Shown here in pieces: positions 2 to 23,908 of a stretch of 31,576 nucleotides of DNA. Source of the stretch: a bacterium (GTDB taxonomy: Bacteria > DRYD01); the NCBI GenBank assembly GCA_030549815.1, contig JAUQQQ010000012.1, positions 16,210 through 47,785 of the forward strand. Reading direction: 5' to 3'. A model generated the notes under the pieces. It did not search any database and had not been told where the DNA came from. It was given only the letters and a program-made list of their open reading frames with translations. The position numbers were made by a program, and so were the translations under genes. Positions within the stretch are counted from its first letter, which is position 1; the number at the start of each line of letters is the position of its first letter.

Positions 2-3000
2 TTTTGTGTTTTTGCAATCAAATACTCTAATCAATTAACAAGTAGAACAAGTAAGAAGAAACAGTTTGAAATTGCTAAAAAATTATTGAGAGATTTGCTT
101 TATGATGCAGGTTTTTTCGTGTTTTTTGATCAAAATGGTAATTTCAGGTTTTCACTCGTTTATTCAAACCCAATAGGAACAAAAAGAGAATACAGTTTTT
201 ACAAAAGGTATACTTATTATGTTGAAAAGGGTAAGCCGTATAGAACTATAAAGAAGGCACTTATTGAGATGAAGACAAATACCCTTGAGGATATAATCTC
301 TGCTTTTTCTACTTTGCCATTAACAAAGGAATTCTACGATGAAATCCAGAGATGGTATGCATGGGCAATCAAAGAAGCTGTATTTCCAGGAGGGAAGATC
401 GAAGAAAATATCATAAGATTGATAACAAGATTAATATTTGTTTGGTTTTTGAAAGAGAGAGGGATTATACCTGAGCAAATTTTTGATCCAAACTTTTTAA
501 AAAACATTGTAAAGGACTTCGGGAGTAAAGATTACTATTATAACGTTATTTTGCAAAATTTATTTTTTGCGACTTTGAATACTTATGCTAAGGATAGGGG
601 GTTCGCTAAAGACGGAGATTTTATTTATCAAAGAACTGATTTTGGGGTTAAAACACTTTTTAGGTATAAAGATAAGATTTTAATTACTGAAGAAGATTTT
701 ATTAAGATTTTTGATGAGGTCCCTTTTGTTAATGGTGGTCTTTTTGAATGCTTAGATGATGATTCCTATTATATAGATGGTTTTAGTAGAAATGAAAATA
801 AAAGAGCTAAACTACCTGATTTCTTATTTTTTTCAAATGAAAAAAAAGAAGATCTTAGTTTTTTTTATAGAGAAAAAAAAGAGGTTAATGTTAGGGGGAT
901 TATTAATATATTAAAGGATTATAATTTTACAGCGGATGAGTCATCTCCTATTGATATAGAGGTTTCGCTTGATCCAGAGTTATTAGGTCATATTTTTGAA
1001 AACCTTTTGGCTTCTTATAACCCTGAAACTCGAACAACTGCTAGGAAAGCTACAGGCTCTTATTATACCCCTAAAGAGATCGTAGATTTTATGGTAGAAG
1101 AATCATTATTTCAATATTTTAAAACTAAGACTTCTATTGATGATAAGAAACTTAGAAATATTATTAGTTATCAGGAGAATGAATTAGATCTTAAGCTTAA
1201 TGAGAATGAGCGTCAGGATTTAATAAGAGCTATAGATAGCTTAAAAGTGATTGATTTAGCGGTGGGTTCTGGGGCATTTCCTATGGGGATCCTTCAAAAA
1301 TTAGTTTATATCCTTAATAAAATAGATCCAGAAAATAAATATTGGTATGAATTACAATATAATAAAGCTATAAATGAACTGGAACAGGTATTAAAAATAT
1401 CAGATCAAGAAGAAAAGATAAACTTATTAAAGGAATTAAATGAGAATTTTGATGATTCTTTTAATTATCCGGATTATTCTAGGAAGTTGTATATAATAGA
1501 GAATTCTATTTATGGGGTTGATATTCAGAATATAGCTATTCAGATAGCTAAGTTGCGTTTCTTTTTGAGTCTTATAATAGATCAAAAAGTAGATAGGAGT
1601 AAAGAGAATTTTGGGATAAAAGCTCTTCCTCATTTAGAAACAAAATTTATTACAGCTAATAGCTTAGTAGCTTTAGAAAAACCGCAATTACTTTTATCAA
1701 CTGAAAAACTTAAGAATCTTAAAAAAGAATTAAAAAGTATTTATAAGAAGTTTTTTAGGATAAAAACTCGTAAAGAGAAATTAAGGTTAAAAGAAAAAAC
1801 CCAAAACATAAAAAATCAAATAAAAGAAGAATTAAATAGGATAGGGTATTCTGATATAACAATACAAAAAATAGCGGATTTTGATATTTTTTCGCAAGTA
1901 AAGGGGAATGATTTTTTTGATAGTGAATGGATGTTTGGGGTAGATGATGGTTTTGATATAGTTATCGGGAATCCTCCGTATATAAGGCAAGAGAAAATTA
2001 AAGAATTTAAACCTATATTAAAGGATCAAGGCTATAAAGTTTTTGATTCAATTGCTGATATTTATGTTTATTTTTACGAAAGGGGATATAAGCTTTTAAA
2101 GGAGGAAGGAGTTCTTTGTTATATCTCAAGTAATAAATGGATGAGAGCTAAGTATGGGAAAAATCTAAGGAGTTTTTTAAAGAAAAATACTTTTTTAATA
2201 ACTTTAGTAGATTTTGGGGGGTATAGGGTTTTTGAGCAAACTGTAGATACCTGTATAGTGTTATTTAAAAAATTGAAAAGTCAGGAATTGTTAGAAGGTT
2301 GGAAATTCAGTTATTGTATAGTTCCTTCTGATTGTGGTGAAATTATAGAGTATATAAGATCTAATTATAGGTTTATGGAGCAGAATAAGCTTTCTGATGA
2401 TGCTTGGACACTTGCTGATGATAAGGAATTGGTTTTAAAAGAAAAGATTGAAAGAGTAGGGAAACCTTTAAAAGATTGGGATGTAAAAATTTATCGTGGA
2501 GTTTTAACGGGTTTTAATGAAGCTTTTATAATAGATACAGAAACAAAAAACAGAATTTTAGAAAACTGTGAAGCAGAAGAAGAAAGAAAAAGAACAGAAG
2601 AAATAATAAAGCCAGTTTTAAGAGGAAGAGATATTGAAAAATGGAGGTATAAATGGGAAGGATTTTGGTTAATTTATTCTTGGCAGGGTATTGATATAGA
2701 TAACTATCCAACTTTAAAAAGCTGGCTTTTACAGTTTAAGAAACCTTTATCGGAAAGAACGGGGGGAGCAATTTGGTCAAAAGATAAAAAACAAATAATA
2801 AAAATACCTTATAAATGGTATGAGCTTCAAGTAGATTATAAAAGCAGCATTAAAGAATTTGAAAAGGAAAAGATTATTTGGCAAGAGATAGTTAGAGAAC
2901 CAAGATTTGCTTATGATAACTCTGGTATATATTGTGAAGCTACAAGCTTTGTAATGACTGGGAAAAATTTAAAATATTTACTTGCTGTATTAAATTCTAA

Positions 3001-3310
3001 AGCTGGTGAGTTTTTCTTTAGAAAATTTTATGCGGGGGGTGGCTTAGGAAATGAAGGGTTTAGATATAAGAAAGCATTTTTAAAAAATTTAATTATTCCT
3101 GATATTACAATAGATAATAAGGAGATAGTTAGAAAAATAGAGGAATTAGTTGATAAGATAATTTTAAGAACCCAAGATATAGATTATGAAATTAATATTC
3201 AAAAACAGAAAGAAGTTAAACTTCTTGAAGATGAAATAAATAAACTTGTTTATAAACTATATAACCTAACAAAAGAAGAAATTGAAATAATTGAGAAAAA
3301 TAATAACTAA
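2..3310 (+). CDS. Type IIG (Eco57I-like) restriction-modification enzyme, 5' end outside window
   Basis: Partial gene. The reading frame is open from base 2, and the residues before the first possible in-frame start (TTG at 86) look like continuous protein, so the true start lies outside the window. It is a combined adenine-N6 DNA methyltransferase and specificity protein. The SAM-binding motif I reads DLAVGSGAF (1253-1279, family consensus DPACGSGAF) and catalytic motif IV reads NPPY (1970-1981). A helical region with WYAWA and FVWFLKERG precedes the methylase core. The C-terminal third (from about 2400) looks like a target-recognition domain, with LRGRDIEKW and a late FVMTGKNLKYLLAVLNS segment. 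Family members carry an N-terminal PD-(D/E)xK nuclease that methylates and cuts with one polypeptide; that region is mostly outside the window, so I cannot say whether the nuclease is intact. It is followed 127 bases later by an XRE-ImmA gene on the same strand. A BREX PglX-type methylase is the main alternative. Confidence 0.85.
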   Translation, partial: FCVFAIKYSNQLTSRTSKKKQFEIAKKLLRDLLYDAGFFVFFDQNGNFRFSLVYSNPIGTKREYSFYKRYTYYVEKGKPYRTIKKALIEMKTNTLEDIISAFSTLPLTKEFYDEIQRWYAWAIKEAVFPGGKIEENIIRLITRLIFVWFLKERGIIPEQIFDPNFLKNIVKDFGSKDYYYNVILQNLFFATLNTYAKDRGFAKDGDFIYQRTDFGVKTLFRYKDKILITEEDFIKIFDEVPFVNGGLFECLDDDSYYIDGFSRNENKRAKLPDFLFFSNEKKEDLSFFYREKKEVNVRGIINILKDYNFTADESSPIDIEVSLDPELLGHIFENLLASYNPETRTTARKATGSYYTPKEIVDFMVEESLFQYFKTKTSIDDKKLRNIISYQENELDLKLNENERQDLIRAIDSLKVIDLAVGSGAFPMGILQKLVYILNKIDPENKYWYELQYNKAINELEQVLKISDQEEKINLLKELNENFDDSFNYPDYSRKLYIIENSIYGVDIQNIAIQIAKLRFFLSLIIDQKVDRSKENFGIKALPHLETKFITANSLVALEKPQLLLSTEKLKNLKKELKSIYKKFFRIKTRKEKLRLKEKTQNIKNQIKEELNRIGYSDITIQKIADFDIFSQVKGNDFFDSEWMFGVDDGFDIVIGNPPYIRQEKIKEFKPILKDQGYKVFDSIADIYVYFYERGYKLLKEEGVLCYISSNKWMRAKYGKNLRSFLKKNTFLITLVDFGGYRVFEQTVDTCIVLFKKLKSQELLEGWKFSYCIVPSDCGEIIEYIRSNYRFMEQNKLSDDAWTLADDKELVLKEKIERVGKPLKDWDVKIYRGVLTGFNEAFIIDTETKNRILENCEAEEERKRTEEIIKPVLRGRDIEKWRYKWEGFWLIYSWQGIDIDNYPTLKSWLLQFKKPLSERTGGAIWSKDKKQIIKIPYKWYELQVDYKSSIKEFEKEKIIWQEIVREPRFAYDNSGIYCEATSFVMTGKNLKYLLAVLNSKAGEFFFRKFYAGGGLGNEGFRYKKAFLKNLIIPDITIDNKEIVRKIEELVDKIILRTQDIDYEINIQKQKEVKLLEDEINKLVYKLYNLTKEEIEIIEKNNN

Positions 3311-3437: not shown

Positions 3438-4550
3438 ATGTCTAAAAAGTCATTTAAAGTTGAGATAAATCCTGAGGTTGTAAAGTATTTGAGAGAAACT
3501 TCAGGATGGAGTATTGAAGAAATAGCTAAAAAACTTAAAATCTCAATAGAAAATTATAAAGAAATAGAAGCGGGTAGGGAATTCCTAACTTTCCAACAAA
3601 TTAAACAGCTTTCTAAACTATTTCAACGACCAACATCGGCTTTTTTCCTTCCCCAACCCCCAAAAGAACTTCCCATTTCTTCTGCGTTTAGAGTATTACC
3701 TAAAACTGAAAAACGAATATCTAAAGAACTACTACTTGCAATAAGAAAAGCACAATATTACCAATCTATTGTAAATGAGATAATTTTAGACTTAAATATT
3801 AGCTTTAATCCTAAAATAGAAAAGACTAAACTTGAAGATAATCCAATACAAGTTGCTATCAAAGAACGTAATGAATCAAGAATTCCTATCGAAAAACAAT
3901 ATAAATTTAAAGATGCTTATGAAGCCTTTAATACTTGGAGAAAATTTATTGAATCAAAAAATATTTTAGTATTTCAATTCAAATTTCCATTAGAAGATGC
4001 AAGAGGCTTTTCATTAATGGATACCTTACCCTATGTGATAGTAATAAACTCGCAAGATAATATCCTTGCCAGAATATTTACCTTATTCCATGAATATGCT
4101 CACTTACTTTTGGGAATAACGGAAATATATAATGATGAAAAAATACAAAACAAAGAAATAGAGGAGTGGTGTAACTCTTTTGCTGCAGAATTTTTGCTTC
4201 CATCGAAAGCCTTTGAAACCGATCCAGATTTGCAAAAAATAATGGAATTAAAAATTTATGACGATGAATTAATTAGCAAAATTTCAAAAACATATAAAGT
4301 AAGTAAAATGCTTGTGATTATTAGGTTAAAAACTTTAGGTATTATAGACGAAAAAACATGTAAAGAAAAATTAGTTGAACTAAAAACTGTATTAAACAAT
4401 AGAAAAGTAAAAAAGGAAAAGTTTGCAAGAAATTTGATTAAAGAGTGTATTAAAGAAAAAGGTAGGGAATTTTTATTTCTTCTCCGGCTTTACAGAAGTT
4501 TTAATGGGGATAAATATATTATTGAAAATTTATATAAAAGTGTTTTTTAA
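3438..4550 (+). CDS. XRE-family regulator fused to ImmA/IrrE (DUF955) metallopeptidase
   Basis: A 370-residue protein with two domains. Residues about 11-65 form an XRE-type helix-turn-helix (GWSIEEIAKKLKIS followed by YKEIEAG). Residues about 170-300 form an ImmA/IrrE zinc peptidase with HEYAH at 218-222 (HExxH) and a downstream EEWCNSFAAEFLLP, where the glutamate is the likely third zinc ligand. Proteins of this class are repressor-proteases or antitoxin-like regulators of mobile elements and toxin genes. The ATG is preceded at 6 bases by GGAG. An eroded DUF4411 toxin-like gene follows within about 80 bases, and XRE-ImmA/DUF4411 pairs are a recurrent toxin-antitoxin-like arrangement. The gene looks intact although its partner is broken. 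A repeat-rich leader precedes it and may be its operator. Confidence 0.88.
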   Translation: MSKKSFKVEINPEVVKYLRETSGWSIEEIAKKLKISIENYKEIEAGREFLTFQQIKQLSKLFQRPTSAFFLPQPPKELPISSAFRVLPKTEKRISKELLLAIRKAQYYQSIVNEIILDLNISFNPKIEKTKLEDNPIQVAIKERNESRIPIEKQYKFKDAYEAFNTWRKFIESKNILVFQFKFPLEDARGFSLMDTLPYVIVINSQDNILARIFTLFHEYAHLLLGITEIYNDEKIQNKEIEEWCNSFAAEFLLPSKAFETDPDLQKIMELKIYDDELISKISKTYKVSKMLVIIRLKTLGIIDEKTCKEKLVELKTVLNNRKVKKEKFARNLIKECIKEKGREFLFLLRLYRSFNGDKYIIENLYKSVF

Positions 4551-4629
4551 CTATTATTAAGATTTTTGTTTTTAATTTTGTTTCCAAAGCTTATATATAT
4601 CAATAAGTTAGAAAATAATGTTTACATAA

Positions 4630-4927
4630 TATATAGAAGCTTTTTGATTAAATTGTCTAAAAAATAACCCAGAAGAATGCTCCTAGTATATTACGAAGTT
4701 AAGAGAGGAAAAGATGAGCTATGTAAATGGGTTGAAAACCATAAAAAAATTTTCAAATCTGAATATAATTAGCGTTAAAAATAAGAGAAGAAAATAAGAT
4801 AAGTGGAGTAGTTATTACTGAGGAAAAAAAAGGAATAGAATGTAGGATTCCTTATGTTTGTAAACAGTATGATATCGAATGTATTAATATTTTGGAGTTC
4901 TTTACTAAGGAGGGTTGGAAATTTTAA
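4630..4927 (+). pseudogene. Frameshifted remnant of DUF4411 PIN-like toxin
   Basis: Three reading frames each carry a recognisable piece of a DUF4411 protein, in the right order. Around 4648-4680 is LNCLKNNPEE, after an in-frame stop. At about 4688-4772 a second frame reads YYEVKRGKDELCKWVE and runs to a stop at 4770-4772. From about 4769 to the stop at 4925-4927 a third frame gives GVVITEEKKG, IPYVCKQYDIECIN and the family-typical ending FFTKEGWKF. About 35 residues expected between the second and third parts are missing, as is the N-terminus with its first catalytic aspartate. This is a decayed gene, not a sequencing slip, because it needs at least two frameshifts plus a deletion. In intact systems the protein is a PIN-like nuclease candidate encoded beside an XRE-ImmA gene, exactly the arrangement here. 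The 5' boundary is uncertain. Confidence 0.75.
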
Positions 4928-5189
4928 TGTGTAGAAAAATAAACGTAGTTAAAAAATTTATAGAAATTCGGAGTTGCTTATCTTACGTGTAGAAATTTAA
5001 GACGACCCTAATCTAACACGTTTGAATAATTTAACTTAAACAGCAAAAACCCAATTTTATAAGGATATTTATATAAGTAATTTTATAGAATTTTAGTTAT
5101 TTTGTATTGTAGATTGGTTTATGTATTGTTTAGTATAGGAGAAGATTATGAATTGAGATGGGTTGTTATAAATTTTAGAGCTTTATAAG
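4928..5189. other. Non-coding spacer between DUF4411 remnant and tRNA-Val(CAC)
   Basis: No open frame of plausible length, no hairpin followed by a T-run and no clear repeat is visible here on either strand. It may be further decayed island DNA. Confidence 0.4.
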
Positions 5190-5262
5190 TGGGCGGAATA
5201 GGGATCGAACCTATGACCTCCTGCTTGTGAAACAGGCGCTCTAACCACTGAGCTATCCGCCC
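5190..5262 (-). tRNA. tRNA-Val (anticodon CAC)
   Basis: The minus strand folds as a full cloverleaf: 7-bp acceptor GGGCGGA/TCCGCCC, D arm GCTC/GAGC, anticodon stem CCTGT/GCAGG with loop TTCACAA, and T arm ATAGG/CCTAT with loop TTCGATC. Anticodon CAC reads GUG (valine). The discriminator A is at 5190 and CCA is not encoded (the next bases read CTT), so the tail must be added by CCA-transferase. The last anticodon-stem pair is a U-G wobble. It differs from tRNA-Val(UAC) at 12054-12129 at only six positions, suggesting one arose from the other. Its 3' end faces the defence patch. Confidence 0.95.
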
Positions 5263-5389
5263 ACCTATTTTATTATTTTTACCAAATTAAAATCAAAACC
5301 TCCTTATTTTAAGAAAAGTTGCGAGAAACATTCTTTTGGAATTAAAGTAGCCATTTCAAGAGAACAAAAAACACTTAACTTTTTTGTTG

Positions 5390-5520
5390 TAGATAAGAAA
5401 AAGCAAGGAGGAAGCACATACAAGACGTTAGCAGTGGGGCAATAACTGTCCGTAAGGATATTGAAGCAGGAAATTTCTGTCGTGAAGCATGAAACCTCTC
5501 GATTAATTAAGGAGAAGGAT
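5390..5520 (+). pseudogene. Possible remnant of IS200/IS605 tnpB 3' end (and overlapping omega-RNA region)
   Basis: The stretch 5400-5505 reads, across a stop at about 5442, like the tail of a TnpB protein: KTLAVGQ, then LSVRILKQE and VVKHETSRL. The KQE/KHE pairs followed by SRL resemble family C-termini. The DNA pattern gtccgtaaggatattgaagc also resembles tnpB 3' ends, where the omega (guide) RNA overlaps the gene. No zinc ribbon, no catalytic part and no left end remain. This is recognition by pattern only and could be chance. Confidence 0.4.
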
Positions 5521-5609
5521 CACATTGTTATAAAAAGAACAGTTAAGATTTAACAAGGCAGGAAAATCAAGTGTAGAATATGATAGAAAAAAAATACAGA
5601 GAATGCTTT

Positions 5610-5642
5610 AAAAAAATAGAAAACTCGCACTTGGCGCTTTTG
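5610..5642 (-). terminator. Possible terminator downstream of truD
   Basis: On the minus strand, about 20 bases past the truD stop, an imperfect hairpin (AAAAGCGC, loop CAAGT, GCGAGTTTT) is followed by a T-rich run, TTTTCTATTTTTTT. The GC core is only 3 bp, with mismatches before the A/T pairs, so it is a weak Rho-independent terminator. It lies where the long minus-strand operon should end. Confidence 0.4.
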
Positions 5643-5661
5643 GTATATCCTTTTGTAAATT

Positions 5662-6684
5662 TCAATCTATTATATAAGGCTTGTACTTAAGTTTTGAATA
5701 ATGGGGATAAGGTATAATATGTTTTATCAAAATGGTTGCAAATGAACCTTTAGGTAAAGTAAAATTCAACTCTATTTTTAACCTTCCTTTGTGGTGTTCA
5801 TCTCCCGAAAATTGAAAACTCATATTATTAAAGAATGCAATAGGATTTCTTTTTTGTGTAAACAGAGATTTTGAAAAATCTCGCTTATTGTCTTCTGGAG
5901 TTGAAAAATCGAGAAATATTTTCTTTAAATCATCTAAACTTAAAGCTTCTAAAGAGGGAATAACGAGAAAATTTTCTTTCTGATAAACTTTTACTGGGAT
6001 GTTATTCGTCTTTTCTAAAACAACTCTTGATAAATTTAGATTGAAAATTAAAGATTTAGCAATTTCTTCTTCTCTTTTCTTTATAAACCTAAAATTTGTA
6101 GAGTATTCTTCTTTATTGTCAGTTATATAATCTTTTATTTTTGTTTTTTCCGAAAACAGGAATTTTTCTATATTCTTTTTTATTTCTTCTTTTGTTAGAG
6201 CAACCGGAAATATATGTTTTTTTAATCTTATTCTCTGAGTATCGTAATAGTTGAAAAAACATGATATTGTTGAAAGTTTTTGAATATTTTTTATGTATAA
6301 CTCTATTTCTTTTTCATCGATATCCCTTAGAGTGATATTAAATTTATTAGCTATTAAATGAACGCTTTTTAGATTTTCTTTTGCAAAACCTATTAATTCA
6401 AGTGATAGATTGCTGTTATTTATTTTTTTGATTTTATCAATTATTTTTTCTACTTTTTGTATCTGAATTGTTACATATTGTGTTGAGATTGAGTATTTGT
6501 CTTTCATTCCTAAAAAGGAAACTTTGGTACCGAATTCTTTGTTTAATATGTCTATTAGTTTAAGTGTAGAAATATTTTTTTTGGTTATTTTTAGCAGTAA
6601 TATATTGCTTTGTAGGGTAAGCAGGTTGTTAATTTCAATGATTTCTTCAACAAGGAAATCATTAGGTAAATACTTGATTTTCAC
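5662..6684 (-). CDS. truD: TruD-family tRNA pseudouridine synthase
   Basis: The 340-residue protein is close to the usual TruD length of about 350. TruD converts uridine 13 of tRNA (in E. coli tRNA-Glu) to pseudouridine in the cytoplasm. The N-terminal FLVEE and the catalytic motif GMKDKYSISTQ (residues 59-69; Asp62 is the expected nucleophile) match the family, as does the C-terminal FTLPKGSFATILIKHI (family LPxGSYAT). The central conserved NYFGxQRFG is altered to NYYDTQRI, and the region after it is hard to align, so this is a divergent member. The GTG start overlaps the pyrG stop by four bases (GTGA), implying translational coupling. It is the last gene of the minus-strand operon. Only substrate position is uncertain. 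Confidence 0.85.
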   Translation of the reverse strand: MKIKYLPNDFLVEEIIEINNLLTLQSNILLLKITKKNISTLKLIDILNKEFGTKVSFLGMKDKYSISTQYVTIQIQKVEKIIDKIKKINNSNLSLELIGFAKENLKSVHLIANKFNITLRDIDEKEIELYIKNIQKLSTISCFFNYYDTQRIRLKKHIFPVALTKEEIKKNIEKFLFSEKTKIKDYITDNKEEYSTNFRFIKKREEEIAKSLIFNLNLSRVVLEKTNNIPVKVYQKENFLVIPSLEALSLDDLKKIFLDFSTPEDNKRDFSKSLFTQKRNPIAFFNNMSFQFSGDEHHKGRLKIELNFTLPKGSFATILIKHIIPYPHYSKLKYKPYIID

Positions 6685-8306
6685 TTGTTTTTTAGGAGTT
6701 CTATAAAATAGTTGAATATGGGGTGGGGGTTGAATATTCTGGAGTTGAATTCAGGATGAAATTGAACTCCCATGAAAAATTTATTAGATTTCAGCTCTAT
6801 GATCTCAACCAAATTTGTTTCTTTATTTACACCACTTATAATTAGTCCGTTTTTTTCTATATTTTTGCTGTATTTTTGAATGATTTCCAGGTTTGCTTCA
6901 TACCTATGCCTATGTCTTTCTTGTATCTCTTCGGTTCTATATATATCAAAAGCGAGGGTATTAGGTTTAATTTTGCATGTGTAATTTCCCAGTCTCATCG
7001 TCCCACCTAAGTTTTTAATGTTTCTTTGGTTTTCAAGTAAATCGATTACGGGTACCTTAGTTTGTGGATCAAATTCTGTAGAATTTGCATCCTTTAAACT
7101 TATTACATTTCTAAAGAATTCAATTAACATTAATTGTAATCCTAAGCAAATTCCTAAAATCGGGATATTATTTTCCCTTGCAAATTTTATAACTTTGATT
7201 TTACCGTCAATTCCTCTACTTCCAAATCCTCCAGGTATTATTATACCGTCGATATTTTGTAATTGAATTTTTTCTACTTTTTCAGAATCTATCAGTTTTA
7301 TATCTAATACTACTTCATTCTTTATTGCTGAGTGTAATAATGCTTCTGTTAAACTTTTGTAGGAATCTTTTAGCTTTGTATATTTTCCAACGATTCCTAT
7401 AACGACCTTTGGGTTTGTATTTTTTTTGGTTTTAACGAGTATATCAACGATTTTTTTCCATCTACTTTCTTGTGGTTTTTTTATATCTATTCTTGCTTTA
7501 AGTTCTTTTGATAGTTTTATCTTTTTAAGGATTAATTTATGAAAATTGTTTTTTAGTAAATAAAAGGGGATAAGATATATGTATTTGAAGTTAGGTATGT
7601 CGATTATGAATTTTTCATCCAGATTAGAGAACAGAGCTACTTTTTTTATTATATCTTTTGGAATTTTAGTCGTTTTATTATTTCTTCTTAAGATCACAAA
7701 ATCGGGTTGTATTCCTATGGATCTTAATTCTTTTACTGAGTGTTGTGTAGGTTTAGTTTTCAATTCTCCTGTATTTTCTATGAATGGTAGGAAGGTTACG
7801 TGTATGAATAAGGTGTTTGGGTTTTCGATTTTCAGTTGTCGTGCTGCTTCTAAAAAAGGTAGGCTTTCTATGTCTCCTACAGTCCCCCCTATTTCCACTA
7901 TACCTATATCGTAGTCTTTTAATTTTTGATATATTTCATTCTTTATTTCTTGTGTTACGTGTGGTATTACTTGTATTGTTTGTCCTAAAAATTCACCTTT
8001 TCTTTCTTTTTCTAAAACTTTTAAATATACTTTCCCGCTGGTTATGTTGTTTTCTTTACTAAAGAGAATGTTAGTAAATCTTTCGTAGTGTCCTATATCT
8101 AAATCGGTTTCTCCGCCATCAAAGGTTACAAAAACTTCACCATGTTCATAAGGGTTCATCGTGCCTGCATCTACGTTTAAATAAGGATCTAATTTTAAGA
8201 CATTTAATTTGAAACCGCTATCTTCTAAGATGGATGCTATAGATGCAGTTATTACACCTTTACCTAAAGAAGATACAACTCCGCCAGTTATGAAAATTAA
8301 ATTCAC
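6681..8306 (-). CDS. pyrG: CTP synthase
   Basis: CTP synthase aminates UTP to CTP using ATP and glutamine, the last step of de novo pyrimidine nucleotide synthesis. At 541 residues it has the normal length. The N-terminal synthetase domain begins FITGGVVSSLGKGVITAS and continues with LDPYLNVDAGTMNPYEHGEV and FDGGETDLDIGHYERF, all hallmark segments. The C-terminal class I glutamine amidotransferase domain carries GGFGSRG, the nucleophile in GICLGLQ, and QFHPEF for the His-Glu pair. The start is GTG at 8304-8306. Only a weak GGTG lies upstream, and the preceding gene ends 19 bases before. It overlaps truD by four bases. Confidence 0.98.
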   Translation of the reverse strand: MNLIFITGGVVSSLGKGVITASIASILEDSGFKLNVLKLDPYLNVDAGTMNPYEHGEVFVTFDGGETDLDIGHYERFTNILFSKENNITSGKVYLKVLEKERKGEFLGQTIQVIPHVTQEIKNEIYQKLKDYDIGIVEIGGTVGDIESLPFLEAARQLKIENPNTLFIHVTFLPFIENTGELKTKPTQHSVKELRSIGIQPDFVILRRNNKTTKIPKDIIKKVALFSNLDEKFIIDIPNFKYIYLIPFYLLKNNFHKLILKKIKLSKELKARIDIKKPQESRWKKIVDILVKTKKNTNPKVVIGIVGKYTKLKDSYKSLTEALLHSAIKNEVVLDIKLIDSEKVEKIQLQNIDGIIIPGGFGSRGIDGKIKVIKFARENNIPILGICLGLQLMLIEFFRNVISLKDANSTEFDPQTKVPVIDLLENQRNIKNLGGTMRLGNYTCKIKPNTLAFDIYRTEEIQERHRHRYEANLEIIQKYSKNIEKNGLIISGVNKETNLVEIIELKSNKFFMGVQFHPEFNSRIFNPHPIFNYFIELLKNK

Positions 8307-8325
8307 AAATTAACACCAATACTTA

Positions 8326-11049
8326 CTATATTTCAATTTCTTGTTCTTGTTCTTTTTCAAATTCTAAGTTATCTATATTTTGTAAGTATTTAATAGCTTC
8401 TTCTTTTGAGAGTTTTCCTGATTTTACTAAGTATCCTATGCTTTCATTAAATGTTTGAGTATCACTTTCTTCAATAGATAGGAGATATTCTTTTATTGCT
8501 CTGTAATCTTCTGATTTTATTAATCCTTTAACTTTGTTATCTACGAAAACTATTTCAAACAAATCCAAAGCTCCTTTTATTACTTTATGAGTTATATAGA
8601 TATTTAGAGTTTTTAAGATATCATCTGATGTATCTTTGTAATCCTTATAAAAGGATATTATATTATCGTAGTCTGCATTAACTATGAAGTTTTTATATGT
8701 TGTGTAATTTAATACGGTTTTTAGGATGTTTTTGTCAATTTGATTTAAAACGATTAAATCATATTCTTCATTAACTACTTTTTTTATGATATTATTAACT
8801 ATTTCTGCATTACCTTTGGTTTCAAACAAATCTATGATGCTTTGTTGTTCTTTATAGAGGAAACTAATTTTTTCTTCAATAATTGCTATTCTCTTTATCT
8901 GTTTATGATTGATGTAATTAATTATAGTTGCTAAAGCTTTGTTTTTTAAATTATTTATCCCTAAGAATAAGACTAATCCTGATAGTCGGTATATTAGTTT
9001 ATCTGGATTGAGTATCGGTAAATTAGAGATGTCTTCTGTAATGTAAGGGATTCTTTTTATCGTTAAAAGATAATCATCGAACATCTTTTGAGTAGTGATG
9101 TAGTACTTTTCTTTTCCTATGGTTTTTATTTTTTCAAAACCATTGTTTAATTCAAAATATTTTAATTCATTATGAGTTAGTAGTTGAGTTATAAAGTTGT
9201 ATACGTCTCCGTTTTTTAAGGTTGTTTTTCCAATTGCTGCAGTAGTTTTCCTGGACTTAAGAATTGGCCTATTTCCGCTTTTAATGAATAGATAATCTGC
9301 ATTTATATCTTCCCTATTCATTAATTCAATGAGTTTATCTAAATTAAAGGGTAAGCTTTCTGTGTATTCTAACTCTGCTTTTTCTTCTTGTGGTTTTATA
9401 AAAATGGAAGTTATTCTTTCTGATACGTTATTAACTAAATTCACAAAATCGTTGTATTTGTTTTCCATAGTATTTATGGATTGTTCTATTGTTTGTAGTT
9501 TTTCTTTTTGTATTCCTACTTCTTGAATTAATTTATCTACTGTTTGATTTATATTTTGTTCTAATGAGGTAATTAAGTTTTTTTGTTTTTCTTCATTTTC
9601 TTTGATTGAATTTATTAAATCCTTGTAAATTTCATCTTTTGAATTTTTTATGATTTCTTGAAGTTTGTTTTCTAATTGGACTATTTTCTGTGTTTGTTCA
9701 AAATCTATCTCATTTTTTAGAGTATCAATGATTTCGATTTTTTCGATTTTATGTTCTATTTCCTGAAATTTTTCTTTTATTTCTGAAAGCACGGTTTCGC
9801 GATAATTACTGATTATTGTATTTATTTTTTCGATTATTAGTTCGTTGATATAATTTTTAAGTGATTCTTGGGTTTGATTAATTTTTTCCTCAATTTCTCC
9901 TAATTTTTGTGTTTGTGCGGCATCTATTTGACTTTGCACATTGAGAACGTATTCGGTTATTTTATTTTCAATGTTTTCAGTTGAATTTTTTAAGATTTCT
10001 TGAAGTTTGTTTTCTAATTGGATTATTTTTTGGGTTTGTTCAAAATCTATCTCGTTTTTTAGATTATCAATAATTTCAATTTTTTCTATCTTATGTTCTA
10101 TTTCATCGAATTTTTGTTTTAATTCTGAAAAGACAGTTTCGCGATAACTATTGATTATTGTATTTATTTTTTCGATTATTAATTCATTTAGATGATTTTT
10201 TACTGATTCGATTATCTTATTTTCGATTTGTTCTCCCAAAGAGGAAGAGATTTTTTGATAAACTGTTTCTTCTGAAGCAGTAGATAAATTTTTCAGTTTA
10301 TCAGCAATTAAATCAATTTTTTCTAAAAATAATTCATTAAGTTTATTATTTATATCATTTTGAATTTGGTTAAAAATTTCGTTTATTTTGTCGATATTTT
10401 CTTGTTTTGATTTATCGATTTTTTCTTCTAATTCTAATAATTTAAGAGTTTGTGCTTCATCTACTTTAGCTTGGTAATTTTCAAAAAATTCGATTATTTT
10501 TTGCTCTATTCTGTTTTCTAATTGGTTTAGTAAGTTTTTTAATTCTCTTTCTTGTTCATTTATATTTTCTTTTATTTTCGATAAATCATTTTTTATTTCA
10601 ATTTGGTTATCAGATAAATTAGAAATTTGAGATACTATATGATCTATTAATGGGAATTTTTCTTTAAATAAAGGATAATCTTTCTTTAATTCTTCAACTA
10701 AATCTAACTTTTTTATGATTTCATCGATGTATTGGCTTAAGCTTTTTAGTTCTTCGAATTTTTGTTCTAACTCTTCTTTGTATTTTTGTATATCTAAGAT
10801 TGTTTTCTCGATTTCACTTAGATTAGTTGAAAGATTATCGATGTTTTTTTGCAATTCAGAAAACTTGATTTGTTGTTCTTCTATGGAGTTTTTTATAGAT
10901 TGGTAATTTAAATTTAATTCGTTTATCTTTTCGAAATTTGGTAAATTAGCTATAGTTTCGATTAATTCATTAACTTTACTTTCTAACTCTTGAATATTTA
11001 TTGAAGCTTCTTGAATTACTTCTTGAGTTTTCTTTTCTTTTTTAGCCAT
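8326..11049 (-). CDS. Long coiled-coil protein with degenerate (catalytically dead) PilT-like ATPase domain
   Basis: This 907-residue protein has two parts. Residues about 10-560 are Glu/Lys/Gln-rich heptad-like coiled coil with internal repeats: a 114-residue unit recurs with its YRETV motif at residues 302 and 416. Residues 566-895 follow the PilT/PilU plan. ADYLFIKSGNRPIL matches the PilT N-terminal SDLHLSAGSPP region, RLSGLVLF leads into the Walker A position, IAIIEEKISFLYK matches TIEDPIEF, EEYDLIVL sits at Walker B, and the tail DLFEIVFVDNKVKGLI ... DTQTFNESI ... GKLSKEEAIKYL matches the PilT C-terminus. Walker A, normally GPTGSGKST, reads GINNLKNKA (residues 697-705), and the Walker B Gly-Glu and the His box TLHT are lost, so ATP hydrolysis is not expected. 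No signal peptide or membrane segment is seen. A strong AAGGAGG lies inside the end of hemE. The function is unknown; it may be a scaffold or a dominant partner of type IV pilus motors. Confidence 0.85.
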   Translation of the reverse strand: MAKKEKKTQEVIQEASINIQELESKVNELIETIANLPNFEKINELNLNYQSIKNSIEEQQIKFSELQKNIDNLSTNLSEIEKTILDIQKYKEELEQKFEELKSLSQYIDEIIKKLDLVEELKKDYPLFKEKFPLIDHIVSQISNLSDNQIEIKNDLSKIKENINEQERELKNLLNQLENRIEQKIIEFFENYQAKVDEAQTLKLLELEEKIDKSKQENIDKINEIFNQIQNDINNKLNELFLEKIDLIADKLKNLSTASEETVYQKISSSLGEQIENKIIESVKNHLNELIIEKINTIINSYRETVFSELKQKFDEIEHKIEKIEIIDNLKNEIDFEQTQKIIQLENKLQEILKNSTENIENKITEYVLNVQSQIDAAQTQKLGEIEEKINQTQESLKNYINELIIEKINTIISNYRETVLSEIKEKFQEIEHKIEKIEIIDTLKNEIDFEQTQKIVQLENKLQEIIKNSKDEIYKDLINSIKENEEKQKNLITSLEQNINQTVDKLIQEVGIQKEKLQTIEQSINTMENKYNDFVNLVNNVSERITSIFIKPQEEKAELEYTESLPFNLDKLIELMNREDINADYLFIKSGNRPILKSRKTTAAIGKTTLKNGDVYNFITQLLTHNELKYFELNNGFEKIKTIGKEKYYITTQKMFDDYLLTIKRIPYITEDISNLPILNPDKLIYRLSGLVLFLGINNLKNKALATIINYINHKQIKRIAIIEEKISFLYKEQQSIIDLFETKGNAEIVNNIIKKVVNEEYDLIVLNQIDKNILKTVLNYTTYKNFIVNADYDNIISFYKDYKDTSDDILKTLNIYITHKVIKGALDLFEIVFVDNKVKGLIKSEDYRAIKEYLLSIEESDTQTFNESIGYLVKSGKLSKEEAIKYLQNIDNLEFEKEQEQEIEI

Positions 11050-11051
11050 AC

Positions 11052-12044
11052 TTAACCTCCTTTGTATTCATTTATTTTTTCTATCAAAAATTGTATATTT
11101 TCAATTTTAGTATTTGGTAGTAATCCATGTCCGACGTTGAAAATATATCTACTTTCATTTTCTTCTATACTTTTGAAAATTCGCAATAAAGAAAGGTTTA
11201 GCATTTTTTGAAATGTATCCCTGCATTGTATTGTTAAAATATGAGGGTCTAAATTGCCTTGAACAAAACCTTCAAAATTATTAAAGTATATATCTAAATC
11301 TTTTTTCCAATCAACTGATAAGCAATCGATGTTGAATTCTTTGATATAATCAATTATGTGGAAAGTGTTTAAGGAGAATAAAATTAAAGGAATTTGAGGA
11401 TATTCTGCTTTAATTTTGTTAAGCAACATTTTATAGTAAGGCAAAATGTAAAATTCAATATCTACAGGGGATAAATCAAAAAGATAAGTATCAAATATTT
11501 GAATTATATCAGCCCCAGCTTCTATTTGTAATCTTGCTATTTTATATAATCCTTCAATTATAAGAAATAAGAAATCTTCATTTGAGTAGATAAAAGTTTT
11601 ATCCAAATTCGAATTTTTAGTTAAATAGTGAATTAAGGTATATATACCTCCGATGAAGCCAATCAGAGGTAATTTTTTTTCTTGAGTTACTATTTTTATT
11701 GCTGTTTTTAAGCTATCCAATATTTCACTATTGCTTTTTATTTTTATTTTCTTTATATCTTCATGTATTTTAACAACTGGGCCTATATTTTCAACTATGT
11801 CGTATTCTATACCTTCTAATAGACTAAAAAAAATAGATATATCTGAAAATATTATTAGAGCATCTAAATCAAAGTGTTTTAAAGGTAATAAAGTGAGGTT
11901 TGCTATTAACTCTGGGTTTTTTAAAATTTCCATGAAAGAATATTTTTCTCTTAGAACTTTGTATTCTGGTAGATATCTACCACTTTGTCTCATTAACCAA
12001 ATAGGAAATGGTTTTTTAGTTGGTATGATTTGTGTTTTAATCAT
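11052..12044 (-). CDS. hemE: Uroporphyrinogen decarboxylase
   Basis: HemE decarboxylates the four acetate side chains of uroporphyrinogen III to give coproporphyrinogen III in heme synthesis. The 330-residue length is slightly short for the family. The diagnostic N-terminal PIWLMRQSGRYLPEY (substrate-binding arginines) is present, as are the FSDI segment, GFIGGIYTLIHYL, QIFDTYLFDLSP, FVQGNLDP and the C-terminal FNVGHGLLPNT. No other heme gene lies in the window. The ATG has no Shine-Dalgarno and lies only 9 bases beyond the CCA end of tRNA-Val(UAC), so tRNA processing would leave a 9-base leader. The downstream coiled-coil gene starts 2 bases after the stop, with its ribosome-binding site in the last hemE codons. 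Confidence 0.95.
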   Translation of the reverse strand: MIKTQIIPTKKPFPIWLMRQSGRYLPEYKVLREKYSFMEILKNPELIANLTLLPLKHFDLDALIIFSDISIFFSLLEGIEYDIVENIGPVVKIHEDIKKIKIKSNSEILDSLKTAIKIVTQEKKLPLIGFIGGIYTLIHYLTKNSNLDKTFIYSNEDFLFLIIEGLYKIARLQIEAGADIIQIFDTYLFDLSPVDIEFYILPYYKMLLNKIKAEYPQIPLILFSLNTFHIIDYIKEFNIDCLSVDWKKDLDIYFNNFEGFVQGNLDPHILTIQCRDTFQKMLNLSLLRIFKSIEENESRYIFNVGHGLLPNTKIENIQFLIEKINEYKGG

Positions 12045-15239: not shown

Positions 15240-17798
15240 CTATCCTTCAAAACCATATTTAAAGAGGCTTTGTATGGGTTCGTCTGGAGATGCTATATCT
15301 AACAATTTTAGAGATTTATTCATTATTAAATTGAAAGACAAACCGTCTTCGGGAAATGAAACAATCGACTGTAGAACTGTCCCATAATCACTTAATTTAG
15401 TAAACAATCTTCTGCTAACTACATACGCTCTTTGTTTGTCTGTATGGGGAAGAAGAATCAAGAATATCCTCTTTTCTTTATCAAAAGTTGCAATATCTAC
15501 ACCAAACCTTATGTTTTCTCTTATATCTTTTCCTATTTTTGATGCTAAATTCAAAATGACTTCATTATCATTGGTTTGAAATAATATTAATGGCTTAACT
15601 GTTATTAAGGATAAAGGTAAAGTATACCTTCTTGCCCTTTTTATCTCTTTTTCGACATCTATTAAAAATTCAGTGTATATATAAAGGTTTGTGAAAGTAT
15701 CTATTCGTGGTTCTCGAGAGGAATCGACGTTTTGTTGTTTTGTAGTTTCTGTATTTATTTCTTCTTCTGCTAATACCACTCTGTTTTTACCTGATTTTTT
15801 GGCTTTATATGCAGCTTCATCTGCTTTTTTAAACAATTCTGTTTTACCTTTTGCATCGACTGGATAGCTTGCGACTCCAAAACTTGCGGTAACAACATAA
15901 TTTTCGGGCAAACCACTGTATTTATGAGAACTTATCTGAACCCTAATCCTCTCTGCGATCTTTTGGGCTGACTGCTTGTCTGTTGAGGGAAGCAATATGA
16001 CAAATTCTTCTCCCCCCCATCTCGCTGCTATGTCTATTCCCTCCCTTAAATTACTCCTTATTATTCCAGCAGTTTCTCTTAAGACTTTATCGCCGACCAA
16101 ATGTCCATAGGTATCATTAATCTTTTTGAAATTATCTAAATCACAAATGATTAATGATAAAGGTAAAGAATACCTTTCTGCTCTTTTTAACTCATTTTGT
16201 ATCGTATTTTCAAAAAATCGCCTGTTATATATCCCTGTGGTTTCATCTAAAGTAGCAGTTTCATGAAATAAAAATGAATCTATGTAGGGCAACGTTTTTA
16301 AAACTATATTACTAATCTTTTGATTAATATCAAACATTTTGAAAAAACCTATATCTTTGCTTATCCTTAAAAATATTATCCCTTTTAAATTCTTTTTGTC
16401 TATCAACGGTATTATGTAATTTGTATTTGTTTTTACTAATCTTTCTATCAAACTGGGAAAGGTCTCTTCAAATAGTTGAATTAACCTGGGAGAAAATGAT
16501 TTTATACTTACTAAATCATTAGATAAGAGCTTTTTATTAATCATTTCACGAGGATCTACATTAACTATTATCTTTAAGTTTTTTAATTCTTCAGGGACTT
16601 TACCTTGGTAAGCTACTAAGTAGAGCTGAGAGGTAGATGTATTATGAAGTAAAAAACCACCGTATTCAAAATTGCTTTTTAAAACTTCAGAAATAAAACC
16701 GATTAACACGCTACAAAAATACTGCAGATTATCTATCTCTTCAATAATTTTCTCAATCTTTCTGTTTATTTTATCTATCTCTTTTTGTGTATTGTAGTAA
16801 TACAAGAAAGATAAAGTTATGGTCAATAGGAGAAGGAAAAGAAGAAGGAAAATTATTTTAAAGACTAAATTTTTTGTTTGTTCTTTTATGCTTTGTTCTA
16901 TTCTAAACTTTAACAATTCTTTGGAAGCATCGGATCTTAAAGAATAGGACTTATTTATGTATTCTTTAGCTTTTGATAAATTGTTTCTGGAAAAATTTAT
17001 TTGAGCCAAATAGTAATATCCTTCTGCTTTTATAGAATCGTCTTGGTAACTGAGCAATTTATTACAAATCTCTTCTGCCTTATCTAATTGATTTATTTTT
17101 ATATACAGATCTGCTAAACGGGAATAGTTTATGAATAAATCTGGTTGCAAATTTATTAGTCTTTGCAAAATTTCGAGTGCTTCGCTGTATTTACCTGCTT
17201 TGTAGTAAGCTTGATACAGCTGATATAAGTAGTAGCCAGAGTAAGGTAAAAAATTAACTATTTCTTGGTAATGCCTTATTCCTTCATTATATTCTTTTAA
17301 ATCAACATATAATTGTGCCAAAACCCTTCTTGCTATTACAAAGGTGGGTTTTACCTTTATGCTTTTCTCTAAATAATCTATTGCCTTTCTATTATCCCCT
17401 TTTATAAAGTAAAGATTACCAAGTAGGTATAAAGAAATGTAATTGTTTTCATCTAATTTAACACTATTGAGTAAGGTTTCTTCACACTCTTTGAATTTCC
17501 CATTATTGAAATAACAATATCCCAATAGCATGTAATATTCAGAATTGTTTGCATATTTTTTTTCTTGCTCTTTCAAAATATTTATAGCTTCTTCATATTT
17601 TAAATCTACGATCAAGTCATCGTATATTTTTTTTAAAACATTATCATTTAGTGGTAAATCAACAAATTTAGCTTCGTAAGTCCCTATCATTGGAGGATTT
17701 CCAGCTATAATTGTCTCAAAAGTAAAACCAAAAACTCTTAAATTTACTAAAAAACAAAATAGCAACAAACAAATAAAAAAGTTCTTTAATTTTCTCAT
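15240..17798 (-). CDS. Membrane TPR protein with GAF-like, GGDEF (diguanylate cyclase) and degenerate GGDEF domains
   Basis: 852 residues from the ATG at 17796-17798, which overlaps the preceding stop (ATGA); a longer frame exists but would overlap that gene by 76 bases. Order: signal peptide or anchor at 7-24; about five to seven TPR units at 55-290, probably periplasmic; a transmembrane helix at 312-335; a short coiled linker at 337-358; a GAF-like domain at about 360-510; and a GGDEF domain at 517-680 with GGEEF at 595-599 and the metal-binding CDLDNFKKIND. A second GGDEF-like domain at 698-840 aligns with the first (LPLSLI, ILLPHTDKQRA) but has lost the signature and the metal Asp. The first domain should make cyclic di-GMP from two GTP. 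The product-inhibition RxxD site is not in the normal register (REGID). The likely role is sensing at the envelope through the TPRs; signal unknown. Confidence 0.9.
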   Translation of the reverse strand: MRKLKNFFICLLLFCFLVNLRVFGFTFETIIAGNPPMIGTYEAKFVDLPLNDNVLKKIYDDLIVDLKYEEAINILKEQEKKYANNSEYYMLLGYCYFNNGKFKECEETLLNSVKLDENNYISLYLLGNLYFIKGDNRKAIDYLEKSIKVKPTFVIARRVLAQLYVDLKEYNEGIRHYQEIVNFLPYSGYYLYQLYQAYYKAGKYSEALEILQRLINLQPDLFINYSRLADLYIKINQLDKAEEICNKLLSYQDDSIKAEGYYYLAQINFSRNNLSKAKEYINKSYSLRSDASKELLKFRIEQSIKEQTKNLVFKIIFLLLFLLLLTITLSFLYYYNTQKEIDKINRKIEKIIEEIDNLQYFCSVLIGFISEVLKSNFEYGGFLLHNTSTSQLYLVAYQGKVPEELKNLKIIVNVDPREMINKKLLSNDLVSIKSFSPRLIQLFEETFPSLIERLVKTNTNYIIPLIDKKNLKGIIFLRISKDIGFFKMFDINQKISNIVLKTLPYIDSFLFHETATLDETTGIYNRRFFENTIQNELKRAERYSLPLSLIICDLDNFKKINDTYGHLVGDKVLRETAGIIRSNLREGIDIAARWGGEEFVILLPSTDKQSAQKIAERIRVQISSHKYSGLPENYVVTASFGVASYPVDAKGKTELFKKADEAAYKAKKSGKNRVVLAEEEINTETTKQQNVDSSREPRIDTFTNLYIYTEFLIDVEKEIKRARRYTLPLSLITVKPLILFQTNDNEVILNLASKIGKDIRENIRFGVDIATFDKEKRIFLILLPHTDKQRAYVVSRRLFTKLSDYGTVLQSIVSFPEDGLSFNLIMNKSLKLLDIASPDEPIQSLFKYGFEG

Positions 17799-18385
17799 TC
17801 TATTAGATGTTTTATTATTTCTTGCTCTTCTTGTCTTAACTTTGACATGATTTCGTTTATGTAATCCCAATCTACTTGGTAACTCAAAATTTGGTGAAGC
17901 ACATAAACTTTTAGTATGTAAAAATTATTTGTAAATGGACATAAATCTATTAAGCGATTAACAAGACTAAGCAAAGATATATTTGCATATTCATTGTTTT
18001 TGCTTATTAATTTTTTGTAATATTTGAGAATAGTAAAGATTAATATGAACAAATCATCAGATTTCTTTATTAAAAATGAGATTATTTTATCATCGTTCAT
18101 TAGATTATTAATTAATTCCTGACTTTCGATTAGATCTAAGATTATTTGTGCTTGTTTTATACCTTTTAAATAAGCAAGAGATGCAAAATATTTGGCTCTT
18201 TCGTAATTGTTATTACTGTATTCATAAAAACTTATCAAAAATTCATCTAACCCCTCTTTTTGTTCTTGTAAGAATATGTTTTGTTGAGAGGAAAAAATAA
18301 AATCAACTAAATTATCAAGAAAATCAATATCCGAACTTTCTACGGCCTTCTGAATTGAAACCTTTAATAAATCTACATACTTCAC
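17795..18385 (-). CDS. Hypothetical helical protein
   Basis: A 196-residue, Ile/Leu/Asn-rich, apparently all-helical cytoplasmic protein that I do not recognise. No catalytic motif, signal peptide or clear membrane span is visible. One segment, ANISLLSLVNRLIDL, and the helices around it could form a short repeat solenoid. The start is taken as GTG at 18383-18385; the first internal ATG codon comes only about 95 residues later, and no Shine-Dalgarno is seen. A TATAAT box lies 17 bases upstream of the GTG. Its stop overlaps the start of the TPR-GGDEF gene by four bases, so the two are probably translated together and may act together. Confidence 0.7.
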   Translation of the reverse strand: MKYVDLLKVSIQKAVESSDIDFLDNLVDFIFSSQQNIFLQEQKEGLDEFLISFYEYSNNNYERAKYFASLAYLKGIKQAQIILDLIESQELINNLMNDDKIISFLIKKSDDLFILIFTILKYYKKLISKNNEYANISLLSLVNRLIDLCPFTNNFYILKVYVLHQILSYQVDWDYINEIMSKLRQEEQEIIKHLIE

Positions 18386-22068: not shown

Positions 22069-23349
22069 TTACTTGCTTTTATTTTTTATCTCTTTTATCT
22101 TTTTTATGCAATCATCAGTTATGTCTATAACTTTATAATTTGTGATATTTTTTGAAAAAACATATTTTAATTTCTTTTCTTGTGCAACTTGTTTTATAAC
22201 GTTAGATATGTTGCTTTCGAATTGATAAATCAGATTATCCTTTTGTTTTTCTAAATCTTGTATTTCTTCATTTAGTTTATTAAATTTATCAAACATTAAT
22301 TTATCGTATTTTTCTGCTAAATTTTTCTTTATTCTCTCAAATTCTTCTTGCAATGTACTCATTTTTTGAGTATATTGATTATATATTTCTTGATTTACCA
22401 TATTGTCTGTGTTTTTTAAGAATGATAAAACAGTTTTGTTGTATTCCTGTTCCAATTTGCTTACAAAATCGTTATACTCTTTTGTAATTTGTATAACTTG
22501 TTGTTTATATTTTGTTTCGTAATCTTGAATCACTTCTTTGGATTTGATCTTATATTCTTCTTCATAAATTTTTTGTATTTCTTCTATTTTTTTGTATACT
22601 TCCTTTTGTGTTTGTTCTACCTTTTCTTTTATTAAATCTTCTTGTTTTTGTTTTATCGTTTGTAATTTTTTCATTATTTCTTCTCTGTCTTTATCGTAAA
22701 TTGAAGTGTTGGAAATTTTTAAGTTAAGGTTAACGATTTCATTTTTGTAAATTTCCTGGATTTGATTTTTATGCTCTTCTATTTCCTTTTTTGATTTTGC
22801 TATTTGTTTATCGATTTCTAATTCCATTTTCTTATAATACCCTTCTTTTATATTTTGTAGGTCTTTGTTCATACTTTTGTATATCTCTTTTTCAATTATC
22901 TTTATTTTTTGTTCAGTTGTGTTTTTCTTTTCTTTTATTTGTTTTTCAACTTGTTTTTTTAAATTTTCTATTTTTGCTTTGATTTCTTTGTTTACATCTT
23001 GTGAATAAATTATTTTTTGTTGAATTTCTTTCTCAAATTCTTCTCTTTTTTTTGATAACTTTTTCATATATATTTCCATTTCTGATATAAACTTTAATTC
23101 CATTGTTTTGTGTAGGTTTTTTAGCTCTTTATTTTTTTGTTCTATTCTATTCTCTATTTCATAAATTTTTTGTTTTACTTCTGGGAATAAAGAAAGGATT
23201 TTTTGAGTATCTACTATTCCTATTTCAATATTACTGGCTAAAGTATTCTTAACAAAGATCAATAGTATAGAAATAAGGAAAAGAAATAAAAGATTATTTG
23301 TGAGGATTTGGTTTATCTTTGTCTTTTTGTTGTTTTTGTAATAATTCAT
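22069..23349 (-). CDS. Oversized OmpH/Skp-like periplasmic protein with very long coiled coil
   Basis: Residues 17-39 form a signal peptide (hydrophobic LLFLFLISILLIFV, then LASN). The mature start IEIGIVDTQKILSLFPEV matches the Skp/OmpH opening (VDxQKV), and the end IKQVAQEKKLKYVFSKN ... VIDITDDCIKKI matches the Skp closing strand (DITDEVI). Between them lies about 330 residues of charged coiled coil, against roughly 80 in ordinary Skp, so the whole is 426 instead of about 160 residues. Skp trimers cradle unfolded outer-membrane proteins between coiled-coil tentacles; here the tentacles would be several times longer. The ATG overlaps the upstream Skp-like lipoprotein by 56 bases, supported by AGGAGG 11 bases upstream. 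lpxD follows by three bases. A role as OMP chaperone or envelope spacer is inferred. Confidence 0.85.
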   Translation of the reverse strand: MNYYKNNKKTKINQILTNNLLFLFLISILLIFVKNTLASNIEIGIVDTQKILSLFPEVKQKIYEIENRIEQKNKELKNLHKTMELKFISEMEIYMKKLSKKREEFEKEIQQKIIYSQDVNKEIKAKIENLKKQVEKQIKEKKNTTEQKIKIIEKEIYKSMNKDLQNIKEGYYKKMELEIDKQIAKSKKEIEEHKNQIQEIYKNEIVNLNLKISNTSIYDKDREEIMKKLQTIKQKQEDLIKEKVEQTQKEVYKKIEEIQKIYEEEYKIKSKEVIQDYETKYKQQVIQITKEYNDFVSKLEQEYNKTVLSFLKNTDNMVNQEIYNQYTQKMSTLQEEFERIKKNLAEKYDKLMFDKFNKLNEEIQDLEKQKDNLIYQFESNISNVIKQVAQEKKLKYVFSKNITNYKVIDITDDCIKKIKEIKNKSK

Positions 23350-23908
23350 CTAAATCGAAACCTCCTAATAAAACATCTTGTTTATCCAAAACAATGTATA
23401 TTTTTTTTTCTTCGTATATTTGTTTTACTATTTCTTGGGGTATATTTTTTTGTTTTGTATATGCTATTATTTGGACATTGTTGTATAGAGGTAAATTATC
23501 GAAATTGCCTTTATCTAAGTTTTCGATGACTTTTTCGGTTAAATCTAATCCTCCGTAAATAAGGACGCTTCTTGAAACAACCAACCCTATTTTTTCTTTA
23601 TTAGCAGTATAATATATAGCTTTCATAACTTTCTCGTTGTATTCTTTCATTATTTTTTCTTTTTTTTCATCAAAATTGTACTTTAAAAAGTATTCCAAAT
23701 TTTGTCCTTTGTTTTCTTTTAGCTTTTGTTCTACATCTTTTTTTAATTCTTCTAATTTTCTTTCTGATTCTTGATAAGTTTTTGAGTTTCTTAGTTTGTA
23801 AAGGTCAACTACTCCTATGAAATCCTGGTTATTTTGATTAATTTCTGTTTTGTTACATCCACTTAAAAAGATAATACAAAAAAGAACTGCTAAAAAAATC
23901 CTCATCAT
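23294..23908 (-). CDS. Skp/OmpH-like lipoprotein
   Basis: A 204-residue protein with a lipoprotein signal peptide: IFLAVLFCIIF then the lipobox LSGC, with the lipidated cysteine at residue 18. The mature part starts with FIGVVDLYKLRNSKTYQESE and a coiled coil, then ANKEKIGLVVSRSVLIYGGLDLTEKVI, the same opening and closing segments as Skp/OmpH. A further 60-residue C-terminal tail ends in a Lys/Asp/Gln-rich stretch. It is probably anchored to a membrane facing the periplasm; the residue after the cysteine is Asn, not the Asp inner-membrane retention signal, which favours outer-membrane sorting if a Lol system is present. No strong ribosome-binding site is seen; an adjacent ATG codon could serve equally. 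It overlaps the next Skp-like gene by 56 bases. Confidence 0.82.
   Translation of the reverse strand: MMRIFLAVLFCIIFLSGCNKTEINQNNQDFIGVVDLYKLRNSKTYQESERKLEELKKDVEQKLKENKGQNLEYFLKYNFDEKKEKIMKEYNEKVMKAIYYTANKEKIGLVVSRSVLIYGGLDLTEKVIENLDKGNFDNLPLYNNVQIIAYTKQKNIPQEIVKQIYEEKKIYIVLDKQDVLLGGFDLDELLQKQQKDKDKPNPHK

Follow-up and report, generated by a model that had tools for sequence, protein, structure and literature searches.

Organization of the locus

The window, i.e., the whole stretch of 31,576 nucleotides that was analyzed, carries a gene for a fusion protein in which a very long coiled coil (residues 1 to 550), already recognized in the initial annotation, is joined to a PilT-like domain (Table 1). 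The order of hemE and the fusion gene is kept in the two genera that carry the fusion wherever the contig extends far enough, and the neighbors across the orthologs are hemE plus either pyrG or a thioredoxin gene. No pilus genes lie next to the fusion gene at the examined loci, and no operon link was found. The N-terminal sequence is M[AS]KKEKK in the window protein and in the copies of genomes G004 and G005, and MSKKDKK in the G003 copy, whose break corresponds to a stretch of N in the assembly.

Table 1. The fusion gene of the window, its parts, and its two neighbors
Feature	Position	Strand	Remark
pyrG (CTP synthase)	6681..8306	-	downstream neighbor, Calescibacterium only
Whole gene, coiled-coil/pseudo-PilT fusion protein	8326..11049	-	intact ORF, 907 aa; orthologs in four other genomes
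RecA-like core, catalytically degenerate	8365..9027	-	
His box position	8668..8703	-	Thr, Gly, and His of PilT replaced
Walker B position	8743..8760	-	DLIVL-N; D kept, GE replaced
Asp box position	8863..8877	-	EEKIS in place of EDPIE
Walker A position	8935..8964	-	LGINNLKNKA in place of GxxxxGK[ST]
PilT N-terminal (N2D-like) domain	9028..9351	-	best conserved part between genera
Clade-invariant patch, AA[IL]GK..LKNGD..NF	9193..9252	-	rare in PilT; candidate new binding surface
Extended helical coil, residues 1 to 550	9400..11049	-	almost no Pro/Gly
Internal duplication in coil	9623..10209	-	245-nt copies (9623-9867 and 9965-10209), 86% identical, 342 nt apart
hemE (uroporphyrinogen decarboxylase)	11052..12044	-	upstream neighbor, kept in both genera

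A Fourier scan of the coil gave hydrophobic periods of 3.4 to 3.5 in the N-terminal part and 3.65 to 3.87 in the C-terminal part in all four orthologs analyzed, with whole-coil peaks exceeding those of shuffled controls, which suggests a left-handed heptad coil turning into a right-handed one. The duplicated segment of the coil is present in one copy only in the ortholog of Candidatus Calescibacterium sp. SKYB25. Searches of Pfam and PHROGs returned no useful match, the Pfam BAR_3 match on the coil being weak and below the cut-off, and the single weak match of the coil motif elsewhere in the window's genome (E value of 0.005) was taken as generic coil.

Elsewhere in the window, an Eco57I-type methylase with a TaqI-like specificity domain (86-3310, forward strand) is followed by a helix-turn-helix/M78 peptidase (ImmA/IrrE-like) gene (3438-4550, forward strand), and the pair resembles a restriction-modification locus. 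The next 1.1 kb or so (4551-5661) contains no long ORF and one tRNA gene (5190-5262). A GGDEF domain joined to TPR repeats is encoded at 15240-17870 (reverse strand), with about 180 more residues after the GGDEF domain. Two adjacent OmpH/Skp-like genes lie at 22069-23349 and 23294-23908 (reverse strand), the first with a long additional coil ahead of the OmpH match.

A full-length PilT domain with altered catalytic residues

The C-terminal domain of the fusion protein is a full-length PilT descendant, as the initial annotation had proposed. The NCBIfam model TIGR01420 (PilT/PilU) matches the C-terminal 348 residues with an E value of 2.6e-18 and 66.4 bits, a score that does not reach the curated cut-off of 319.1 bits, and Pfam PF00437 has no match in the window protein. 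PilT sequences of the PDB are matched at 1.3e-7 by phmmer and at 5e-20 by profile, and a profile-profile comparison with 11 intact PilTs covers domain residues 8 to 339 with a probability of 99.9 and an E value of 3.8e-35. The best structural matches of an AlphaFold model (mean pLDDT of 76) are PilT4 and PilU (Z score of 23.7 over 325 to 334 residues), followed by DotB (22.6), PilB (19.5), and GspE (about 18.5); its Foldseek E value is 5e-22. The sequence and profile matches to PilT are far above chance. The rmsd is about 7 Å, which is probably due to the angle between the two domains. The model built with the five orthologs reached a pLDDT of 54.6 and rose to 76 when one PilT relative from IMG/VR was added; because this relative is in the alignment, the model is not independent of the PilT homology and supports the PilT fold without being independent proof of it. 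Identity between the genera is 47 to 50% in the N-terminal domain versus 33 to 35% in the core, and identity of the fusion proteins to intact PilTs is 20 to 28%.

Among 58 positions with conservation of 95% or more across 44 intact PilTs, 18 are kept in the window protein, 20 in each of its two Calescibacterium relatives, and 26 and 27 in the sister-genus copies. At the Walker A position of the window protein the first Gly and the Lys remain, and the loop is one residue shorter and has lost the two inner Gly residues and the Ser/Thr. The motif is erased in the three Calescibacterium proteins and reads GDLGSGKS in the two sister-genus proteins. In all five orthologs, the catalytic Glu of Walker B is replaced by Asn (YDLIVL-N in the window protein), the Asp box has the form EEKI[STN] or SEKIE with DP changed to EK, the Thr, Gly, and His of the His box (TGH...TLH) are replaced, and RFR has become KYY or KYK, without its arginines. 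The Calescibacterium proteins also have deletions after the His box, in the pore-loop region. At the position of the AIRNLIRE motif near the C terminus, the window protein has KVKGLIKS, a partial match, and the sister genus has EIRKAILE.

The replacements that the initial annotation had read from the DNA at Walker A, the Walker B Gly-Glu, and the His-box TLH were all seen. To its question of whether Walker A is degenerate in all homologs, the answer is that it is so in the three Calescibacterium proteins but not in the sister genus, where the motif is intact. Such homologs were to have pointed to a local mutation; however, the catalytic Glu is lost in them too. A sequencing error or local mutation is also excluded by the three Calescibacterium species sharing the Walker A loss. 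As the Glu loss is common to all five proteins and the Walker A loss is restricted to Calescibacterium, the changes appear to have been stepwise, with catalysis going first and the nucleotide pocket later. In the simplest history, catalysis would have been lost before the two genera diverged, and only one of them would then have lost the P-loop. ATP hydrolysis by the fusion protein is highly improbable, judging from these residue losses.

Contacts between PilT packing units involve D32, R81, R195, T221, and H230 in Geobacter numbering (PMC6858323). Located by motif matching rather than by superposed coordinates, the contact residues are mostly replaced in the orthologs, including the Asp of SDL, both RFR arginines, the Arg of LR, TGH, and TLH, which argues against a classical ring assembly. 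At domain positions 41 to 60, 10 of 20 residues are invariant in the fusion clade yet rare in PilT, and this N-terminal patch is likely a contact surface. Together, the replaced contacts and the new patch argue against poisoning of hexamers and for a non-hydrolyzing adaptor or tether.

Distribution, origin, and selection

The fusion protein is kept by a family of hot-spring bacteria. Its orthologs, which place the window's genome in the Calescibacterota, are encoded by Candidatus Calescibacterium sp. SKYB25 (65% identity), by bacterium SKW172 (67%), and by two sister-genus metagenome-assembled genomes (39%). A pattern scan of 84,980 species genomes, by a method that reaches fairly close relatives only, recovered only these four known orthologs; no further coil-PilT protein was found in 346 genomes, and a single-sequence scan of genome contigs gave no match. 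The gene was not found in G001 and G006, an absence that is uninformative because both assemblies are incomplete and lack hemE as well. The fusion proteins are a lineage-restricted family of pseudo-ATPases of the PilT kind.

Genuine pilus motor genes, which the initial annotation had suggested looking for, are present elsewhere in the window's genome (1.59 Mb) as separate intact PilB and PilT genes, together with PilC, PilM, and secretin genes, and each of the five genomes with the fusion gene has intact PilTs and PilM. The window's genome (1.6 Mb) encodes five intact PilT paralogs, each of which forms a separate clade across the family. It also encodes a highly divergent PilT-like protein (L049 8574-9635) that keeps GPKRSGKT and the Glu of the Walker B position and has a tree branch of 5.28.

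A tree of 50 sequences unites the five fusion proteins in one clade (support of 100/100) and places it next to a stand-alone intact PilT of the same genomes; this grouping has support of 88/63, rising to 97/98 with the G006 copy included. Its support was 93 in a second tree from which three of the long branches had been removed. Residues common to the two groups include an LMN.[DE] segment before the first strand. The locus of this nearest intact paralog is not in a pilus operon. The fusion protein descends from a duplicated PilT; because the fusion clade has a long stem branch and an unusual composition, its precise sister group is probable but not certain.

The dN/dS of the dead domain is 0.078 between G002 and G003 and 0.146 between G004 and G005, compared with 0.059 and 0.067 for the intact paralog in the same pairs; synonymous sites are saturated in pairs with the window gene itself. 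The dead domain is therefore under strong, though slightly relaxed, purifying selection, in agreement with the initial annotation.

Proposed role, alternatives, and known systems

A binding or adaptor role without hydrolysis is very probable for the fusion protein, since the full-length fold is kept, the catalytic residues are lost, purifying selection acts on the domain, and a new invariant patch is present. The best explanation overall, offered tentatively, is that a pseudo-ATPase head at the end of a rod docks onto the type IV pilus motor. A cytoplasmic, non-hydrolyzing PilT derivative would sit at the end of a long alpha-helical coil, and the coil would oligomerize into a rod that, fully extended at 0.148 nm per residue, would measure about 80 nm. 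The PilT-like heads would serve as a static module to which a partner docks and by which it is tethered or positioned, probably through the new N-terminal patch; the mostly replaced packing-unit contacts make such a static head the best reading. PilT that lacks ATPase activity remains able to bind PilC and PilU and allows retraction driven by PilU (PMC6821130; PMC6762196). Within the pilus machinery, the platform protein PilC or one of the five intact PilTs would be the favored partner, although the choice of this machinery, drawn from descent and co-occurrence only, is itself made with less than even confidence. Of the earlier suggestion of a scaffold or inhibitory partner of pilus motors, the binding role without hydrolysis stands, but inhibition of hexamers is less likely, with the packing-unit residues mostly gone.

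It is possible, though somewhat doubtful, that the link to pili has disappeared altogether and that the protein is a structural, cytoskeleton-like coiled-coil protein with the PilT fold as its oligomerizing or capping head. The lack of pilus genes near both the fusion gene and its nearest intact paralog fits such a protein, as do the altered packing-unit contacts, the Calescibacterium deletions after the His box, and a coil length that shifts by internal duplication as in structural rods. However, the PilT N-terminal domain and C-terminal tail stay well conserved, and every genome carrying the fusion gene has intact pilus motors. The five intact PilTs of the window's genome and the descent from PilT would suit an inhibitor that mixes into genuine PilT hexamers and stalls them, dead subunits being a common poison of ring ATPases. 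This is nevertheless improbable, as the contact residues through which such subunits would pack are not kept in the orthologs and identity to intact PilTs is so low.

The GDLGSGKS of both sister-genus copies, retained although their catalytic Glu is Asn, raises the alternative of a nucleotide-sensing switch that binds ATP without splitting it, with Calescibacterium having later dropped nucleotide control, for which ArlH offers a parallel. Such a switch is also quite unlikely, since the sister genus, too, has altered RFR arginines and an altered His box, and the window protein has no P-loop. A stem branch this long and so little identity with PilT could be read as decay of a gene without function, which is hardly credible in view of the low dN/dS (0.08 to 0.15), the reading frames intact across two genera, the conserved hemE neighbor and N-terminal start motif, and the assembly gap that accounts for the break in the G003 copy. 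A pseudogene was ruled out by the dN/dS of the dead domain.

Relative to the PilT/PilU retraction ATPases (TIGR01420; 6ok2, 9n32, and 2gsz), the fusion protein has the same two domains with the same order and spacing of landmarks; it differs in the added coil of about 550 residues, the lost catalytic residues, and a score under the family cut-off. The engineered Vibrio cholerae PilT mutants K136A and E204A show that a PilT fold unable to hydrolyze ATP can still bind its partners and support PilU (PMC6821130; PMC6762196), but they are artificial, coil-free point mutants of a working motor whose inter-subunit residues are kept. ArlH, whose Walker B diverges and which has not been shown to hydrolyze ATP, docks beneath the archaellum motor (PMC12024892). 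It resembles the fusion protein in its RecA-type fold and type IV filament setting, a likeness that is a functional analogy only: ArlH is KaiC-like, coil-free, and keeps ATP binding, whereas the fusion protein is PilT-descended according to the tree, profile, and structure matches. It is rather unlikely that the protein is a lineage-specific cytoplasmic scaffold whose pseudo-PilT head, on its rod, docks under type IV pilus motors and links them to a further structure of the cell, which would make it an independently evolved bacterial counterpart of ArlH and the archaellum's cytoplasmic ring.

No description of a naturally dead (degenerate, inactive) PilT was found in the open papers searched. 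The family offers a natural series running from the intact paralog through proteins with the Glu lost and Walker A kept to proteins with both lost, which could separate the ATP-burning role of PilT from its binding role, a separation approached so far by point mutants. It would also be an example of a secretion-ATPase fold that was recruited to form the head of a long rod. PilT is likewise fused to a sizable additional region in PilT-TPR fusions of other phyla and in a tandem PilT, but there the catalytic motifs are intact, the added region comes after the ATPase or is itself a second one, and no long coil stands ahead. Two of these loci (L098 2586-4856 and L099 539-2803) encode an intact-motif PilT with TPR-like repeats, adjoined by outer-membrane-like and surface-like proteins, and the third (L100 610-2820) is one ORF with two complete PilT domains in tandem.
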